A DNA stretch of 52,889 nt from an uncultured Methanomassiliicoccales archaeon (GCA_949292635.1 CASEZY010000015.1:1-52889), one strand, 5' to 3'; counted from the first letter of the stretch, positions 3,932-49,656 are shown. The notes: a model not told the origin generated them from the letters alone. Made by a program: numbers and translations.

Positions 3932-4441
3932 ATGAACGGGATCGCCCTCGCCACCATCGCAGGACTGTCCGCAGCGGTCTGCGTGCTTGGTACTTTGCGT
4001 GCCCGCAGGACCGCCCGGGAGGCCGCCGAGAGGCGCCGCAGACTGGCAGAGGACACCTCCACCTACTGCTCCGATGACTACCACGCCGACGGGGACTGCG
4101 GGCTGTGCTTCGACCCCATCGGAGGCGAGGAGGTTGCCGTCTGTACATGCGGGAAGGTATATCACCGGACCTGCGCCGAACCCACCGGGGGATGCCCGTA
4201 CTGCGGAGCACCCTTCTCGGAGTTCGGGATCCGGGAGCCCAGGAGCATCACCTGCCCCCGCTGCGGTTCTGTGACGACGGCGGGGATCTGCGACTGCGGA
4301 GCGGTGATGCCCGACTCCAGGGGCCGCTTCCCCTGCCCCTGCGGCGAGGAGCTAAGGATAACGGCGGACAGATGCCCCTCCTGCGGTCGCACCTTCGAGA
4401 AGAAGGTGGTGGCCGCCGACAAACGGTTTATACCGAGATGA
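3932..4441 (+). CDS. Membrane-anchored RING-like (C4HC3 treble-clef) zinc-finger protein
   Basis: 169 residues. One N-terminal transmembrane helix (about 4-20) is followed by a basic helical linker (about 23-40). A cross-brace zinc pattern then reads C56-x2-C59, C71-x-C73, H78-x2-C81 and C88-x2-C91 (CTCGKVYHRTC and CPYCG), which resembles RING or RING-CH fingers. Further ribbon-like Cys pairs lie at 108/111, 120/122, 135/137 and 148/151. The ATG at 3932 is preferred because a TATA-like box lies about 25 bases upstream; a TTG at 3857 would give a longer form. RING fingers recruit E2 enzymes, so a ubiquitin-ligase-like role is possible, given the E2 gene at 47.9-48.4 kb. That role is inference. 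Family membership was judged by motif only. Confidence 0.65.
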   Translation: MNGIALATIAGLSAAVCVLGTLRARRTAREAAERRRRLAEDTSTYCSDDYHADGDCGLCFDPIGGEEVAVCTCGKVYHRTCAEPTGGCPYCGAPFSEFGIREPRSITCPRCGSVTTAGICDCGAVMPDSRGRFPCPCGEELRITADRCPSCGRTFEKKVVAADKRFIPR

Positions 4442-4453
4442 GGTAGCGGTGGC

Positions 4454-4759
4454 ATGACCGTCAAGTCCGTCAGAGGCCGCAGGAGGTACATCGCCTTCGT
4501 CTGCGACCCGTCGTTGGACCGCCCCGGTCTCATATCCCTTCTGAATGAGAGGGCGGGGGAGTCCGCGCCGTACGTGGTCCAATGCTCCGAGGGCTGGTGC
4601 ATACTGAGGTGCACCCCGACGCAATGCGACGATACGATAGCATTGATGTGCTCCGCCGACGGGAGTGCCAGATCACTCAGGACCTCCGGGACCCTCCGCA
4701 CCCTGAGGGCCCGCTATCCCAGGCTTCATGAGCTGCGCCCTCCGCCCAAGCGCAAATGA
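4454..4759 (+). CDS. rnp2: RNase P protein component 2 (Pop5/Rpp14 family)
   Basis: 101 residues. It would bind the RNase P RNA and help mature tRNA 5' ends. The N-terminus (SVRGRRRYIAFVCD) and the C-terminal GTLRTLRARYP segment match the Pop5 pattern, and the length is typical. Its place next to psmA and the exosome genes is the conserved archaeal arrangement. The last 34 bases overlap the 3' end of the opposite-strand Fic gene, which is unusual for a core gene. Confidence 0.82.
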   Translation: MTVKSVRGRRRYIAFVCDPSLDRPGLISLLNERAGESAPYVVQCSEGWCILRCTPTQCDDTIALMCSADGSARSLRTSGTLRTLRARYPRLHELRPPPKRK

Positions 4760-6057
4760 GGCCCTATGGCACCCCTTGCATTCTCCGTATCGACCATATA
4801 GAGACGTTTCTTCCGATCCTTCAGCACCTGTTTCACATAACCCAGATCTTCGAGATGCATCACGTACTTGCGGGCGGTCTGATACACGACACCGTATCTC
4901 TTCTCGATCTCTTTGATCGAGAACAGTACCGGCTCTTGTATATGGTCATAAAGTATCGACGCTTCAATTGCATTCAATCCCGTGTCGTCCCTCAGGAGTT
5001 CCAGCGCACCTCTGCCCTCTTCTGATTTGCGCTTCATATACGCCTGTAGCTCGTCGATGGACCGGCGGATACATTCCAGGTTGAACATTACGAAATATGT
5101 CAGATCCCCTCCGTCATGTTCGGTATACTGATACGCTTTTGCGTATGCGCCACGATGTCTGTAGATATCAGACGAGATCGATGTGAATTCGAATATCCTG
5201 TATCCATTTTTCAAACAGTACCAGTAGAACAAAGTCCGCGCGATACGACCGTTGCCGTCTATGAACGGGTGTATGAATCCGATCATGTAGTGGAGTATGA
5301 TGGCCTTGACGATAGGGTGAAGGAACTGTTCGGAGTCTGTATTGGCGAAACGACAGAGGTCCTCCATCATAGCCGGAACCTCCCTGTGGGAAGGTGGTAC
5401 ATGATATACCTCATCATCTTCGATGGGATTTCCGACAACTACACTGTCATCATCGCGGAAACGACCTTCCCATTGTGCACCATCGCGAAGAGTACCTGAT
5501 GTCATGGTCGAGTGAAGATCCAGGATGAGAGGTATGGAAAGATCTTCATCAACAATCTCTTTCAGCCTCTCCATCGCAAGATAATTGTTCATGATCATAA
5601 GTTCGTCATGATTGCGAGGCTTGGTGCCAGATCTTAACATGCGCTTTGCATCCATCCTAGTGACAGCTGCACCTTCAATCTGACTGGATGCGATGGCCTC
5701 TTCCATCAAAGAGCTCGTTGTGAACCTCTTGGACCCGCCATCGGGCAATCTCGTTTCTATCGCATCCAGCGCTTTCCGATCAAGGTAATATAATGTCTCT
5801 GAAACGCAATCAGGCATGCAGATAGACATTTTGAGCCCGCCTATGTTCACATCTACGGACATACCTAAACGAATGCCTTTCATCACATTCCATACGGCAA
5901 TGCGATCCTTGTCGACATCAATACGATATGACAAGTCTGCCCAGTGAAGATATCTCGCGTTGTACTCATTCACCTTTGCCATCATTTCGGTATCGCACCG
6001 AACATACCTATCGTCTAGGTCTGGGTCATATACAGGCGCATCTTCCATCCGGGCCAT
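4726..6057 (-). CDS. Fic-domain protein with C-terminal winged helix
   Basis: 443 residues. The Fic core motif HPFIDGNGRIAR is complete at about 263-274, so the catalytic His and the phosphate-binding loop are present. An upstream SSQIEG (about 124-129) matches the inhibitory (S/T)xxxE(G/N) helix of self-inhibited class II Fic proteins. The C-terminal part (about 380-430) looks like a winged helix, common in Fic proteins that regulate their own gene. Fic enzymes usually AMPylate target proteins. The ATG at 6057 fits a leaderless start from the AT-rich box about 25 bases upstream. Its base composition is clearly lower in GC than its neighbours, and it interrupts the exosome superoperon, so it was probably acquired. 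Confidence 0.9.
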   Translation of the reverse strand: MARMEDAPVYDPDLDDRYVRCDTEMMAKVNEYNARYLHWADLSYRIDVDKDRIAVWNVMKGIRLGMSVDVNIGGLKMSICMPDCVSETLYYLDRKALDAIETRLPDGGSKRFTTSSLMEEAIASSQIEGAAVTRMDAKRMLRSGTKPRNHDELMIMNNYLAMERLKEIVDEDLSIPLILDLHSTMTSGTLRDGAQWEGRFRDDDSVVVGNPIEDDEVYHVPPSHREVPAMMEDLCRFANTDSEQFLHPIVKAIILHYMIGFIHPFIDGNGRIARTLFYWYCLKNGYRIFEFTSISSDIYRHRGAYAKAYQYTEHDGGDLTYFVMFNLECIRRSIDELQAYMKRKSEEGRGALELLRDDTGLNAIEASILYDHIQEPVLFSIKEIEKRYGVVYQTARKYVMHLEDLGYVKQVLKDRKKRLYMVDTENARGAIGPHLRLGGGRSS

Positions 6058-6338
6058 ACGTAACAATCATGTTATTAATTAAAAACTATTTGCTTTAATT
6101 TAGTAATTCGTGACATTTACAAAAAACCCCCTATTCGTCCAGGGTGAATACCGATAGATGGTCACAAGTCGATGTTCGACAAACTCTGTCTTACCGAACA
6201 GATGATGTCCGCCGACAAGATATGTGCTGGCTATTGTGAAATCGGTGCATTGTTGGGATGAATGTCGCCCTCCATCCCTTACGCGCGTACGCTAAAGGTA
6301 CAAATAGTTCCGTGGTATAGCCCGCGCCGGAGAAGATC
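6058..6338. other. Intergenic region with divergent promoters for the Fic gene and psmA
   Basis: AT-rich next to the Fic start, with TTTTTAATTAAT as its likely TATA region. Near psmA, GTACAAATAG (about 6297) is a plausible TATA box, and GGAG lies six bases before the ATG. No further gene is seen. Confidence 0.4.
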
Positions 6339-7049
6339 ATGCAACCGGGACAAATGGCTTATGACAGGGGAATCACAGTGTTCTCCCCTGACGGAAGGCT
6401 CTTCCAGGTGGAGTACGCCCGCGAGGCGGTCAAGAAGGGAACCACCACCGTCGGACTGAAGTTCGACAACGGCGTGATCCTCATCGTGGACAAGCGCGTC
6501 TCCAGCAGACTCGTGGAGCCCGAGTCCATCGAGAAGATCTACGACATCGACAAGTACATCGGCTGCGCCACCTCCGGACTCGTCGCGGACGCCAGGATTC
6601 TGGTGGACGAGGCCAGGAAGAACGCGCAGGTCCACAGAATCACCTACGGCGAGAACATCACCGTGGGCGCCCTGGTCAAGAAGATCTGCGACATGAAGCA
6701 GAACTACACCCAGTTCGGCGGCGCCAGGCCCTTCGGCACCGCGCTGCTGATGGCTGGCGTGGACGACCTCGGCTGCCACCTCTTCGAGACCGACCCCTCC
6801 GGGGCCCTGGTCGCATACAAGGCAGGCTCCATCGGCGCCGGACGCCCGGCGGTGATGGACATGTTCGAGAAGGAATTCAAGGACGGCATGTCCTTCGAGG
6901 ACGCCATGCTCCTCGGACTGAAGGCCCTCTCGAACGCCATCGAGGAGAAGCTGGACCCCCAGAACGTCGAGTGCGCCGTGGTGGAGAAGGACAAGCCCTT
7001 CAGAAGGCTGTCCGACGACGAGATCGGCGCATTCATCGCAAAGCTCTGA
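6339..7049 (+). CDS. psmA: Proteasome alpha subunit
   Basis: 236 residues, normal length. The N-terminal MAYDRGITVFSPDGRLFQVE segment is the alpha-subunit signature that forms the gating H0 helix. The body follows the Ntn-hydrolase fold without the beta-type propeptide or catalytic Thr. It forms the outer heptameric rings of the 20S proteasome and docks the PAN or Cdc48 unfoldases. It leads the superoperon, with SBDS starting five bases after its stop. Its presence near a ubiquitin-like system is relevant, because archaeal Ubl conjugates can be proteasome substrates in other lineages. Confidence 0.97.
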   Translation: MQPGQMAYDRGITVFSPDGRLFQVEYAREAVKKGTTTVGLKFDNGVILIVDKRVSSRLVEPESIEKIYDIDKYIGCATSGLVADARILVDEARKNAQVHRITYGENITVGALVKKICDMKQNYTQFGGARPFGTALLMAGVDDLGCHLFETDPSGALVAYKAGSIGAGRPAVMDMFEKEFKDGMSFEDAMLLGLKALSNAIEEKLDPQNVECAVVEKDKPFRRLSDDEIGAFIAKL

Positions 7050-45825: not shown

Positions 45826-46875
45826 ATGATCAGATTCGGGCCGGCCGGCATCCCCCTGTCCTGCAAAGGACGCACCCTCAGAGACGGAATCGATGACGTT
45901 CACAACCTCAGCCTCACCGCTATGGAAGTGCAGATGGTCCGTGCGGGCACGTTCACCATCTACATCGACGAGGAGGACGCCGGGAAGACCATGAACACCC
46001 TGGACGGGGGCATGGCCGTGGAGATCATCAGGGACGACGAGCCCATCACCGACCCGAACGAGCCCTTCCAGGAAGAGGATCAGGTCGTGATGATGAACTC
46101 CGGCATCGTGGACTGCTTCGGAGACCTGGGACCCCTGGGCCGCATGGCCAAGCGCCTCGACATCGCCATGAGCCTCCACACCCCCAACTACATGGACCTG
46201 GGATCCAACGACGGCCTCACCGAGATCTGCTTGGACAACATCCGCCACGCCGGCCTGGTGGTCGACGCCCTGCAGGGCGACCTTGTGGTGACAAGCCTGG
46301 GACTCTACGACGGCAACCACTCCGAGGAGAAGATCGAGGCAAACATCTACGACAACGTGGCCATGGTCATGGACTGGTGGCACGACCAGGGACTGAAGCC
46401 GAAGCTCGGTGTGGAGATCACCGGCCAGCAGGAGGTCTTCGGCTCCCTGGACCAGGTGCTGGACATCTGCGACCAGATCGACGGTCTGGTCCCCGTGATC
46501 AACTTCCCCCACCTCCACTCCCGTACCATGGGCTCCCTCATGGAACCGATGGACTTCGCCAACGTGATCGAGCAGGTGGCGCCGTACTGCGACAACGGCA
46601 GGCTTTACGCCAACTTCGCCGGCGTCGAGCACATGGATGGCAACGAGCTCAGGCTCACCCCCATCAAGAAGGGCGACCTGAAGTTCGAGACCCTGGCAGA
46701 GTGCCTGGCGGACGTCCGCCCCGAGGCCACGATCATATCCTCGTCCCCGCTGTTGGAGCACGACGCCATGTACATGCGCGTCATCTACGAGAGGGTCATC
46801 AACAAGCGTGTGGGCAAGTACCTCCGCGCCAAGCGCAAGGAGGCCGAGTCCGCGGCGGCCGAGGCGGCTGAGTGA
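45826..46875 (+). CDS. TIM-barrel protein, endonuclease IV/xylose-isomerase-like
   Basis: 349 residues. The beta/alpha pattern with DIAMSLHTPNYMDLGS, GLYDGNHSEEKIEANI, LGVEITGQQEVFG and VINFPHLHSRTMG contains the His and Glu metal ligands expected in AP-endonuclease-2-like (sugar-phosphate isomerase/nuclease IV) barrels. The N-terminal RFGPAGIPLSCKGRTL opening is typical of archaeal members. The substrate could be DNA abasic sites or a sugar phosphate. An Ala/Glu-rich tail ends the protein. hxlB starts with a TGATG overlap. Confidence 0.75.
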   Translation: MIRFGPAGIPLSCKGRTLRDGIDDVHNLSLTAMEVQMVRAGTFTIYIDEEDAGKTMNTLDGGMAVEIIRDDEPITDPNEPFQEEDQVVMMNSGIVDCFGDLGPLGRMAKRLDIAMSLHTPNYMDLGSNDGLTEICLDNIRHAGLVVDALQGDLVVTSLGLYDGNHSEEKIEANIYDNVAMVMDWWHDQGLKPKLGVEITGQQEVFGSLDQVLDICDQIDGLVPVINFPHLHSRTMGSLMEPMDFANVIEQVAPYCDNGRLYANFAGVEHMDGNELRLTPIKKGDLKFETLAECLADVRPEATIISSSPLLEHDAMYMRVIYERVINKRVGKYLRAKRKEAESAAAEAAE

Positions 46876-47417
46876 TGGACGGATACGGTGACAGTCTCGA
46901 TTCCCTCCTGGAGCGCATCCGGGAGGTGGCGGGTTCCGCCGACCCCACCACGCTTTCCAAACTGGCGGACGCCCTCGTGGAGAGCAGGAAGGTCTTCATC
47001 TACGGATCCGGCAGGTCCGGCCTGGTGGGGCAGTGCTTCGCCGTGAGACTGGTGCAGATGGGTCTTGATGTCCATTTCGTGGGTGACATGACCACGCCGA
47101 TCATCGGCAAGGACGACCTCACATTGATCATATCCAACACCGGCGAGACCATGTCTGCCGTGCAGACTGCCAACATCGCCAGGCGCATCGGCTCCCACGT
47201 GGCATGCATCACCGGTTCCCGCTACAGCAAACTGGCACATGCTTCCAACACCGCCATCGTTTTGCGTACGGTTGGCAACGACGGAGCCGCCATGCCTCTG
47301 GGAACGCTGTTCGAGGATGCGGCCATGCTCATGTTCGACTCCATGGTGCCCGTGCTGATGAAGAGACTGGGCATAAGCGAGGACGACATGCGCAAGAAGC
47401 ATGCCATCTGGGTCTAA
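46875..47417 (+). CDS. hxlB: 6-phospho-3-hexuloisomerase (SIS domain)
   Basis: 180 residues. VFIYGSGRSGLVGQCFAVRL (about 37-56) and ISNTGETMSAV are the SIS-domain phosphosugar motifs; the size matches Hxl isomerases. In archaea this enzyme, with hexulose-phosphate synthase, makes ribulose 5-phosphate. No hps is adjacent. ATG 46875 overlaps the upstream stop. Its 3' end overlaps the convergent JAMM gene by four bases. Confidence 0.85.
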   Translation: MDGYGDSLDSLLERIREVAGSADPTTLSKLADALVESRKVFIYGSGRSGLVGQCFAVRLVQMGLDVHFVGDMTTPIIGKDDLTLIISNTGETMSAVQTANIARRIGSHVACITGSRYSKLAHASNTAIVLRTVGNDGAAMPLGTLFEDAAMLMFDSMVPVLMKRLGISEDDMRKKHAIWV

Positions 47418-47917
47418 TCGGTGACGATCATCCTGGCCGTTTCTATCCCGTCCCCGACGGATGCGTATATCATGAACTCCCTGCGGACCGGATCCACCAC
47501 CGCGGCGTAGCCGAATCCTTTGAACAATGAGGTCTGGGTCTTTATGTCGATGTCCGAGAGTACGCATCCGAAGTCCAGATGGGAGTGGTACCACCCCACT
47601 ATCGACTCCCCTTCCTCGAGGGAATCGACAGCATCTATGAACGCATCCGGGGAATCGGTGTCGAAGCGCACCCCCACCCTATCGGCGATCAGGTCCCCGG
47701 TGATGGTGCGATGAATCTCCGCATAGACGCCGCGGGCGTCGCGATACACCCGTCCTATCAGAAGGCCCAGCACCTCGATGTCATCCGCCAGGCCGTCGTC
47801 CGCATGGTCGGTCATCTCCTGCAGTACCGACTCGCGAACGAACACGTCCGCCGCCGGGACCCTGCGCGTCCTCTCCGCGATCTGCGGATCGTCGCAGGAA
47901 AGGACCTTCGGGCTCAT
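47414..47917 (-). CDS. JAMM/MPN+ metalloprotease (deubiquitinase-like)
   Basis: 167 residues. The full JAMM motif is present: Glu48 in IEVLGLLIGR, and H111-S-H113 followed by S121 and D124 (HSHLDFGCVLSDID, H-x-H-x7-S-x2-D), which bind zinc and catalyse isopeptide cleavage. Rpn11-type enzymes of this fold remove ubiquitin and process precursors. It is the last gene of a four-gene operon and overlaps E2 by ATGA. Its role is probably to mature the Ubl or to take conjugates apart. Confidence 0.92.
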   Translation of the reverse strand: MSPKVLSCDDPQIAERTRRVPAADVFVRESVLQEMTDHADDGLADDIEVLGLLIGRVYRDARGVYAEIHRTITGDLIADRVGVRFDTDSPDAFIDAVDSLEEGESIVGWYHSHLDFGCVLSDIDIKTQTSLFKGFGYAAVVDPVRREFMIYASVGDGIETARMIVTD

Positions 47918-48396
47918 TGCTCCGCCCCGTACTCGATCTTGGCGTTGAAACGGGAGCCGTTGTCCGAGAAGTAGCGGGCGGCGGCCATACAGGTCTCGGT
48001 GCCGAAGGGGCTGTTGGGATTGGGTTCGCTCACCAGCGTCTCAACCCCCTTCAGGAAGTTCAGCAGGCTGGTCTCGAAGGTCCACTCGTTGAGCATCTTG
48101 ATGCATACGTAGCCGCCGTCCTCGGGACCGAGGATGTTGGGATGGAAGATCGGGGACCTCCACCGCACCTCCGGCTTACGGAAGCCGTACTCCTCCGTCA
48201 GGATGATCACGAAGTCGTGCTCCATTCTGATATGGTCCGGCGCATCGTAACCGATGACATTGCTCATGTGCATGTCTATGCGGATGGGGAACTCCGCCTT
48301 CTCCGGATCGAAGTCGAAATCTGAACCCAGATACTCCCGGCAGTCCCTCAGCTCCTTGGATATCCTGCGCATCAGCACAGGGCGGGGAAGTCCCAT
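47914..48396 (-). CDS. E2-like ubiquitin-conjugating enzyme (UBC fold)
   Basis: 160 residues. The core reads RSPIFHPNIL (HPN at 85-87), then GGYVCIKMLNEW with the active-site Cys98 and the conserved Trp105. LLNFLKGVETLVSEPNPNSP follows, which is the ordinary E2 arrangement. The N-terminal helix MRRISKELRDCREY is also E2-like. The ATG at 48396 follows a GGAAGGCGGG stretch; ATG 48372, sharing a base with the Ubl stop, is an alternative that removes eight residues. E2 would accept the Ubl from E1 by thioester transfer. HPN and Cys are intact, so activity is expected. Confidence 0.92.
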   Translation of the reverse strand: MGLPRPVLMRRISKELRDCREYLGSDFDFDPEKAEFPIRIDMHMSNVIGYDAPDHIRMEHDFVIILTEEYGFRKPEVRWRSPIFHPNILGPEDGGYVCIKMLNEWTFETSLLNFLKGVETLVSEPNPNSPFGTETCMAAARYFSDNGSRFNAKIEYGAEQ

Positions 48397-48638
48397 CGGC
48401 ACCCGCCTTCCGGATCCGGGATCATCTCCAGCACGTCATCCGTGACCAGGTTGATCTCGGCGACGGTATCCGAGCCTCTCAGGAGCTTCTTGCCCTTCTT
48501 CAGGACATAGGCGCCGGCATCCTTGCTCCAGAAATCGGCGGCGCTGTCGATTATGTCGCAGACCTTGTCCGTGGGCTCCACCTCCATGCGGATGGTGGCC
48601 CCGTTGGAAACGTTCCTGACCGTGATCTTTATCGGCAT
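48372..48638 (-). CDS. Ubiquitin-like protein with Gly-Gly and short tail
   Basis: 88 residues. The pattern IKITVRNVSNGATIRMEVEPTDKVCDIIDS, then YVLKKGKKLLRGSDTVAEINLVTDDVLEMI, is a beta-grasp fold as in ubiquitin. Gly78-Gly79 is followed by nine residues CRWDFPALC. A precursor with a removable tail is the natural reading, but the tail is also encoded by the stretch that overlaps the E2 start. GGGGTGACG is the ribosome-binding site, four bases after the E1 stop. Confidence 0.85.
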   Translation of the reverse strand: MPIKITVRNVSNGATIRMEVEPTDKVCDIIDSAADFWSKDAGAYVLKKGKKLLRGSDTVAEINLVTDDVLEMIPDPEGGCRWDFPALC

Positions 48639-48642
48639 CTCG

Positions 48643-49404
48643 TCACCCCGTATGGTTCGGGCAGCCGGGATCGATGTCCGCGGCCACTGTGAACGAATCG
48701 CATAGGGTTCCGTCGTAATAAGAAATGTTCGAGATGCAGAGCTCCGGATGACCGGAGGCGATCTTCATGGCCTCCCTGACCTGCATGGCCGCGATGACGG
48801 CGGTGGTGGTGATGTCCGAGGCCATCCTCGGCACGTACACGGTACCGCCGCCGGTGCAGCTGAACCTGCGCTCCGCCTCCCGGACATGGCTACGGTTCAT
48901 GGCGCATTGGAGGCAAGGACCTCCTGGAAGGACGGTCTGCACCTTACCGCGCATGCCGTCGGTGCCGCCGTCCACATACGGTATGCGGTAGAAACAGCAG
49001 TGGGAGTTCACATGCAGCCGGGCGGCGATGTTGTCCAAACATCCCAGGACGATGTCGTAGTCCCATGAATCCAATTCCTGCACACCGCCCTCGATGGCCC
49101 GCACGTCCGCCTTCGGATCCAACGTACCTGCACGCTCCGCCACCAGGACGCTCTTGGAAAGACCTCTGTCGTCTGCGGAGAAGAACAGGCAGCGGCTCAG
49201 GTTCGACATGTCCACGGTGTCCATATCGATCACGTCGATCCTGCGGAACCCGGAGAGCACCAGGTTCTTGACCGCCTCATTGCCCAGCGCTCCCGCACCC
49301 ACAACCAGGACCCTGACGGAACGGATGCGGTCCATGTCCACCCATTCTATCCGCTTCTGACGGTCGTGACGGTCACCGTCGGCCTGCCCGATGCTGCGGT
49401 CCAT
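48643..49404 (-). CDS. E1-like activating enzyme (ThiF/MoeB/UBA fold)
   Basis: 253 residues. The Rossmann ATP motif is GAGALG (36-41). IDMDTVDMSNLSRCLFF holds the acidic Mg/ATP residues and the SNLSR arginine (R71). GCLDN (121-125) and the zinc Cys pair CLQC (164-167) follow; CPNH at the C-terminus (248-251) may complete the zinc site. Cys183 (RFSCTGGG) is a candidate thioester Cys. It is a compact single-fold enzyme without a separate ubiquitin-fold domain. First gene of the operon; a TATA-like box (TTATTTATT) about 25 bases upstream makes a leaderless start at ATG 49404 likely. Confidence 0.9.
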   Translation of the reverse strand: MDRSIGQADGDRHDRQKRIEWVDMDRIRSVRVLVVGAGALGNEAVKNLVLSGFRRIDVIDMDTVDMSNLSRCLFFSADDRGLSKSVLVAERAGTLDPKADVRAIEGGVQELDSWDYDIVLGCLDNIAARLHVNSHCCFYRIPYVDGGTDGMRGKVQTVLPGGPCLQCAMNRSHVREAERRFSCTGGGTVYVPRMASDITTTAVIAAMQVREAMKIASGHPELCISNISYYDGTLCDSFTVAADIDPGCPNHTG

Positions 49405-49455: not shown

Positions 49456-49656
49456 ATGGCGGTAGTCAGGCTGCCCGATCATTCCCACTGCGAGTTCTGC
49501 GGGGACCCCATACCCTTCGGAGAGGTCTACTGCGACGAGAAGTGCAGGAAGGGTGCCGAAGAGGCGACGAAGAAGGACAAGTGGAAGGACGTCGCATTCT
49601 ACGGCGTGGTGGCCGTGGCGATCCTTATCTTGGTCTACGGCGCCATCTTCAGGTGA
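49456..49656 (+). CDS. DUF2116-like zinc-ribbon protein with C-terminal TM helix
   Basis: 66 residues. HCEFCGDPIPFGEVYCDEKCRKGAEE holds four Cys of a treble-clef or zinc-ribbon, and a C-terminal transmembrane helix (FYGVVAVAILILVYGAIF) follows. Common in archaea with unknown role. It is divergent from the ubiquitin-like operon and shares its promoter region. Its last 22 bases overlap folP from the other strand. Confidence 0.82.
   Translation: MAVVRLPDHSHCEFCGDPIPFGEVYCDEKCRKGAEEATKKDKWKDVAFYGVVAVAILILVYGAIFR

Follow-up and report, generated by a model that had tools for sequence, protein, structure and literature searches.

The window analyzed here is the whole of contig CASEZY010000015.1 (1-52889; 52,889 nucleotides) from the genome GCA_949292635.1 of an uncultured Methanomassiliicoccales archaeon, which amounts to 1.48 Mb with a completeness of 99.9% and a contamination of 0.13%. 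At 47414-49404, its minus strand carries an operon for ubiquitin-like conjugation in which the genes for an E1-like activating enzyme, a ubiquitin-like modifier (Ubl), an E2 conjugating enzyme, and a JAMM protease follow one another, neighbors overlapping or nearly touching. The original prediction, made from the sequence of the window, had placed the same four genes there with overlapping junctions, as is seen in the E2 ATG, which shares one base with the Ubl stop (TGATG), and in the JAMM ATG, which overlaps the E2 stop.

48643..49404, minus strand: E1-like activating enzyme, 253 amino acids, ThiF fold (Pfam ThiF, 1.9e-48)
48372..48638, minus strand: ubiquitin-like modifier precursor, 88 amino acids, with G78-G79 at 48407-48402 followed by a 9-residue tail, CRWDFPALC
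47914..48372, minus strand: E2 conjugating enzyme, 152 amino acids, with HPN at 77-79, Cys90 (codon 48105-48103), and Trp97
47414..47917, minus strand: Rpn11-like JAMM protease, 167 amino acids, with E48 and H111-S-H113-x7-S121-x2-D124 (JAB, 3.3e-13)

That the first protein is E1-like, as proposed from its GAGALG nucleotide loop, SNLSR, and CLQC, is confirmed by the ThiF match, whereas CLQC proved to be only half of a zinc-type cysteine set completed by CPNH. C164, C167, C183, C248, and H251 are invariant in all 47 E1s; judged by ThiF/Uba architecture, the zinc set would be C164/C167/C248/H251, and C183 (codon 48858-48856), from its invariance and position, is the likely thioester cysteine. 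The best matches in the PDB are Uba2, Uba1, and Uba3, then MoeB, ThiF, and Uba5, the alignments spanning the adenylation domain only. The ATP-binding ThiF domain, the zinc cysteines, and the putative catalytic C183 place the protein in the ThiF/Uba superfamily; neither a separate Cys domain nor a ubiquitin-fold domain was found in its 253 residues, and it is not a canonical eukaryotic E1. The Ubl gives only subthreshold Pfam matches as a single sequence (ubiquitin, 0.014; Rad60-SLD, 0.027), but its AlphaFold model is a beta-grasp, with low confidence at the C terminus from residue 79, and the 50 PDB folds listed as matching it are ubiquitin, SUMO, NEDD8, ISG15, engineered ubiquitin variants, and Caldiarchaeum ubiquitin. 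A profile built from 35 Ubls likewise matches ubiquitin-type PDB chains plus one Rad23, and MoaD or ThiS was not found by it in the PDB (E up to 0.01). The motif PDPxGG is invariant in 35/35 Ubls, and many Ubls have a tail of 1-10 residues after GG. The beta-grasp fold that had been predicted therefore stands on both model and profile, whereas the Gly-Gly is not C-terminal as encoded; the protein is a ubiquitin-type modifier whose Gly-Gly becomes terminal only once the 9-residue tail is removed. It is of practical note that, from PDPEGG, Glu-C would leave a GG remnant but trypsin one of 25 residues, so that a tryptic Gly-Gly remnant search would fail here.

The E2 matches Pfam UQ_con (2.6e-13) and Rad6 (4e-11), and its AlphaFold model, with a mean predicted local distance difference test score of 89, has the UBC fold, matching Rad6, Ube2N, and Ubc9; the concern that a non-UBC fold might emerge was thus not realized. 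HPN and Cys90 align with those of true E2s, in keeping with the earlier reading, and both are invariant in 49/49 loci, making the protein a UBC enzyme by fold, HPN, and catalytic cysteine. Translation could alternatively begin at a GTG at 48402, and a second cysteine, C128, is as invariant as the catalytic one over the 49 loci. These features also bear on the proposal that the locus is a sulfur-carrier pathway of the ThiS/MoaD/Urm1 kind with the E2 as a bystander. The E1 is MoeB/ThiF-like in size and matches the ThiF and MoeB models, but far below their cut-offs; with HPN and the catalytic cysteine invariant, with Uba2/Uba1/Uba3 as the best solved relatives of the E1, and with a Ubl whose profile and fold match ubiquitin rather than MoaD/ThiS among the matches listed, we regard this explanation as highly improbable.

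The JAMM protein has the complete HxH-x7-S-x2-D motif that had been reported and, with its glutamate and an Rpn11-like core, the makings of a JAMM/MPN+ isopeptidase; its profile matches Rpn11 best (5.7e-26), then Caldiarchaeum Rpn11 (CsRpn11, 2.6e-22) and CSN5. The motif is intact in nearly all loci except those of one genus (g7). In the seven g7 genomes with an E2, the JAMM protein is without the metal motif, and the Ubl ends exactly at GG in all six that are readable; Ubl tails are present only where JAMM is intact or truncated by a contig end. This pattern is consistent with JAMM being the enzyme that processes the Ubl but, because it comes from a single clade, is not proof of it. Residue conservation across loci also upholds the statement that all four proteins keep their active-site residues.

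The survey across the order shows how widely the system is spread. E2 is present in 96 of 147 Methanomassiliicoccales genomes and in 83 of 390 sampled across the phylum, and the gene order E1-Ubl-E2-JAMM is kept in 40/40 loci of the order examined; the operon, which had been thought unusual for a methanogen, is thus the usual state here. Named records related to the E2 come from Methanomassiliicoccales and other Thermoplasmata/Thermoplasmatota, with Candidatus Methanomethylophilaceae closest, so the methanogen host that had been suspected holds as well. Because the genome is nearly free of foreign sequence and the operon occurs in most of the order, contamination is ruled out as its source, and because operon, gene order, and catalytic residues recur throughout the order, chance origin is excluded. 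Single-gene trees of E1 and E2, built without Asgard, Caldiarchaeum, or eukaryotic sequences, group broadly by family; because not all families are recovered, they support vertical descent weakly. The address of the operon is defined by two genes.

46872..47417, plus strand: HxlB-like SIS isomerase, convergent with the JAMM gene (Pfam SIS; RuMP_HxlB 1e-44, just below cut-off)
45826..46875, plus strand: AP_endonuc_2/TIM-barrel protein, second conserved neighbor (Pfam 5e-11)

Each adjoins the operon in 46/49 loci, with ribosomal genes beyond, and outside Methanomassiliicoccales several loci of the class share these neighbors. Judged by this gene context, the address is a stable core or housekeeping location, not a mobile defense island. 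This matters for the view that the operon is an antiphage system of the Bil (bacterial ISG15-like) or cyclic oligonucleotide-based antiphage signaling system (CBASS)/E1-E2-JAB kind, a comparison that had been raised early on. Bil operons also combine Ubl, E1, E2, and a JAB deconjugase, and the E1 shows a partial PADLOC E1-E2 match and weak BilD matches. Neither the Ubl nor the E2, however, matches a PADLOC family, and JAB reaches just 0.003; presence is broad, the address beside ribosomal genes is fixed across the order and beyond, and a RING candidate, described below, is linked to core proteasome and exosome genes, a pattern unlike that of patchy defense islands. We therefore reject defense as the best reading and consider it very unlikely.

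Divergent from the E1 gene, at 49456-49656 on the plus strand, lies a DUF2116 treble-clef membrane protein gene that is a frequent neighbor of the family. It was considered as the E3 and rejected; because it is retained in genomes lacking E1 and E2, it is not coupled to the operon. The candidate E3 is encoded elsewhere in the same window and had escaped the original prediction, as had the processing tail, the ancestry of the system across the order, and the decay series described below.

3932..4441, plus strand: RING-like protein, candidate E3 (zf-RING_2, 1e-4), with C4HC3 ligands C56, C59, C71, C73, H78, C81, C88, and C91
4454..4759, plus strand: gene that we take to be Pop5-like, without Pfam or NCBIfam match, conserved between RING and psmA
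6339..7049, plus strand: proteasome subunit gene (PF00227, 1.3e-61), start of a PsmA-SBDS-Rrp4-Rrp41-Rrp42 block of conserved order

The RING-like protein comprises an N-terminal hydrophobic segment, the RING-like domain, and zinc-ribbon-like motifs. A zf-RING_2 search of its own genome matched the window itself, at 4094-4204, with a score of 24 bits against a cut-off of 27.3 bits that 11 genomes of the order exceed. All eight ligands, in the cross-brace order C-C-C-C-H-C-C-C, are invariant in 19/19 sequences; ligands 1 and 2 flank a hydrophobic residue, ligand 7 is followed by an invariant proline, and the best PDB matches of the family profile are the RING E3s RNF165/Arkadia (1.9e-7). Across Methanomassiliicoccales the gene belongs to a superoperon that reads HdrA | RING - Pop5-like - PsmA - SBDS - Rrp4 - Rrp41 - Rrp42; RING lies within the Pop5-like/PsmA/SBDS/exosome block in 18 of 20 loci, the other two being without psmA in the stretch covered. 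The window genome carries two proteasome-family genes. A Fic/DOC gene (4726-6066, minus strand) interrupts the superoperon of the window between the Pop5-like gene and psmA, a gap too small for such a gene in most relatives examined.

RING and E2 come and go together. By Pfam alone, 80 of the 147 genomes have both, 16 E2 only, 4 RING only, and 47 neither (P=6e-20); with the family profile, used as a sensitivity control on that count, the figures become 90, 6, 3, and 48 (P=3e-28), and without the largest loss genus 90, 6, 3, and 17 (P=9e-13), P values that ignore phylogeny, though losses recur in several genera. The profile recovered RING in 10 of the 16 Pfam-negative genomes with E2, and the remaining 6 are 68-87% complete. 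Many of its matches in E2-less genomes span the zinc-ribbon part alone and were excluded, and a weak partial match in G102 (a 39-residue frame) was dropped as spurious. As for genomes with RING only, the contig of G011 ends at the SIS gene, the operon region of G122 is probably unassembled because only a weak SIS match is present, and G068 is 68% complete. Among high-quality genomes (at least 90% complete and at most 5% contaminated), RING occurs in 49/49 with E2 versus 1/25 without, and the assembly of that single genome probably lacks the operon region. Inspection of 15 E2-less genomes showed, in every one, a superoperon lacking nothing but the RING gene; because these genomes fall in genera g10, g7, g20, and g22, the loss happened several times.

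On this evidence, we think it probable that the window encodes a complete archaeal system for ubiquitin-like conjugation that is tied to the proteasome and goes back to the ancestor of Methanomassiliicoccales. Besides the disregard of phylogeny in the P values, several points weigh against this. Because the E1 is a bare adenylation domain, with neither a Cys domain nor a ubiquitin-fold domain, transfer from E1 to E2 would need another docking route. In the RING-like domain, the spacing of ligands 6 and 7 is short, the ligand set is C4HC3, and the Pfam score in the window genome is below cut-off, and the domain could be a zinc domain other than an E3. Finally, RING gene and operon are non-adjacent in this order; in the window they lie ~43 kb apart in separate operons, unlike the single operon of the Caldiarchaeum type. 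The short loop, the C4HC3 ligands, and the missing linkage also favor a four-gene cascade in which Ubl conjugation needs no E3 and the RING-like protein is a separate proteasome/exosome accessory lost in parallel, e.g. by genome reduction, and according to review text haloarchaeal SAMPylation works without E2 or E3. Set against this are the near-perfect co-occurrence of RING and E2, with losses in several genera while all RING neighbors stay, and the finding that in two genomes of another class (L111 and L113) the gene immediately upstream of Ubl-E2-JAMM encodes a giant protein with a C-terminal RING of this type. We accordingly view an E3-less cascade as unlikely and favor the complete system.

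Genomes that have lost E1, E2, and RING keep traces of the operon. In those of g10, the site still has a Ubl-like gene without GG, and several also keep a JAMM-like gene without metal ligands, an assignment with weak scores (1e-4 to 7e-3) that draws partly on position. The remnant loci of E2-less genomes (L223-L240, e.g. L235:5856-6113 and 6149-6514) have reading frames that are still open, and E1 and JAMM-like genes persist in degenerate form in G034 and G040 of g7. Among g10 pairs with less saturation, the ratio of nonsynonymous to synonymous substitution (dN/dS, NG86 method) is ~0.2 (0.20 for the Ubl pair G101-G076 and 0.21 for the JAMM-like pair G083-G078), so that both genes appear to be under purifying selection. 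Such losses and inactive remnants in related genera might suggest that the operon of the window is itself a decaying, non-functional relic, but no active-site residue is missing from the window genome or from most of the order, and we find this barely credible. Other arrangements occur in further lineages. L107:7808-8494 and L108:6330-7007 encode Ubl-E2 fusions without the usual catalytic cysteine position and without GG, adjoining a divergent gene of ~1450 residues with a RING-like domain, probably an inactive pair resembling ubiquitin E2 variants. In other lineages of the class, L100:6611-7681 and L102:6617-7750 encode zinc ribbons and a further domain ahead of a fused Ubl; what appeared to be a RING/Ubl fusion in L100 is actually a zinc-ribbon/Ubl fusion, and the JAMM of L100 is fused to a long coiled coil. 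Further E1-E2-JAMM systems of the phylum are found at L109, L110, L112, and L114; their E1s and E2s are longer or otherwise different, and the systems may be Caldiarchaeum-like or bacterial-type.

Related archaeal systems are already known from Caldiarchaeum and Asgard. The E1/E2/RING cascade of Caldiarchaeum has been reconstituted, and its pro-ubiquitin bears a nine-residue tail that is removed by its Rpn11 (PMC5654768). The system of the window resembles that of Caldiarchaeum subterraneum in its Ubl precursor with a 9-residue tail after GG, its E1, E2, RING-type protein, and Rpn11-like JAMM, and the clustering of its genes (PMC5654768, PMC6043591), as well as in the matches of its JAMM profile to CsRpn11 and of its Ubl model to Caldiarchaeum ubiquitin. 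It differs in that the RING protein, which bears an N-terminal hydrophobic segment as well as zinc ribbons, is encoded in a proteasome/exosome superoperon rather than the ubiquitin operon, in that the E1 is a minimal form without added domains, in that the JAMM gene is inside the operon, and in that the host belongs to an order of methanogens. JAMM-3 and other prokaryotic JAMMs near Rpn11 occur in operons with ubiquitin, E1, and E2 homologs (PMC6043591, section 6), as the Rpn11-like JAMM does here, and the window system may belong to this group. The text of that paper does not name Methanomassiliicoccales and reports RINGs of the E3 type only in Caldiarchaeum and Asgard (PMC6043591), and among Euryarchaeota a survey listed a single environmental genome with ubiquitin-system genes (PMC4327156). 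An Rpn11/PSMD14-like protein of Methanomassiliicoccus luminyensis, a member of the same order, was noted in 2015; it very likely belongs to the same JAMM family as that of the window and, in the relevant part of that paper, is reported alone, with no mention of E1, Ubl, E2, or RING (PMC4453063). Haloarchaea also combine Ubl conjugation with a MoeB-like E1 and a JAMM protease (UbaA, the small archaeal modifier proteins or SAMPs, and HvJAMM1), but here the Ubl is ubiquitin-type and an E2 is present. In the full-text literature searched, which excludes supplements and subscription papers, no description of the operon or the RING of Methanomassiliicoccales was found; within that scope, the ancestry of the system across the order, a RING encoded in the superoperon and lost along with E2, and the persistence of inactive remnants appear to be new.

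From the identities, folds, and active sites of these proteins and from their linkage and co-loss, we infer the catalytic steps, the contact between E2 and RING, the substrates, and the proteasomal outcome of the proposed pathway. JAMM would cut the tail after Gly79, exposing Gly-Gly; the minimal E1 would adenylate the Ubl and load it on Cys183; and the Ubl would then be handed to Cys90 of the E2. Acting as E3, the RING-like protein, whose gene lies next to that of the proteasome alpha subunit and which is probably anchored in the membrane, would direct the Ubl to lysines of (perhaps membrane) proteins, which would go to the proteasome, with JAMM removing or recycling the tag. More tentatively, such a proteasome-coupled system with a membrane-anchored RING E3 may be ancestral in the order, separate from the Asgard and Aigarchaeota cases, and may have been dismantled in several genera, where selection kept the GG-less Ubl and the metal-less JAMM for a new, non-conjugating job. 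Complete prokaryotic ubiquitin cascades with a RING have so far come mainly from uncultured Aigarchaeota and Asgard archaea, whereas in this order of methane-making archaea from gut and sediment, which includes cultured methanogens, genomes normally carry the same toolkit, with a candidate ligase gene beside proteasome genes. The old question of whether archaeal Ubls reach the proteasome by way of an E2 and an E3 thereby becomes testable in culture. The repeated losses with kept remnants provide natural knock-outs and show how a ubiquitin system can be dismantled.

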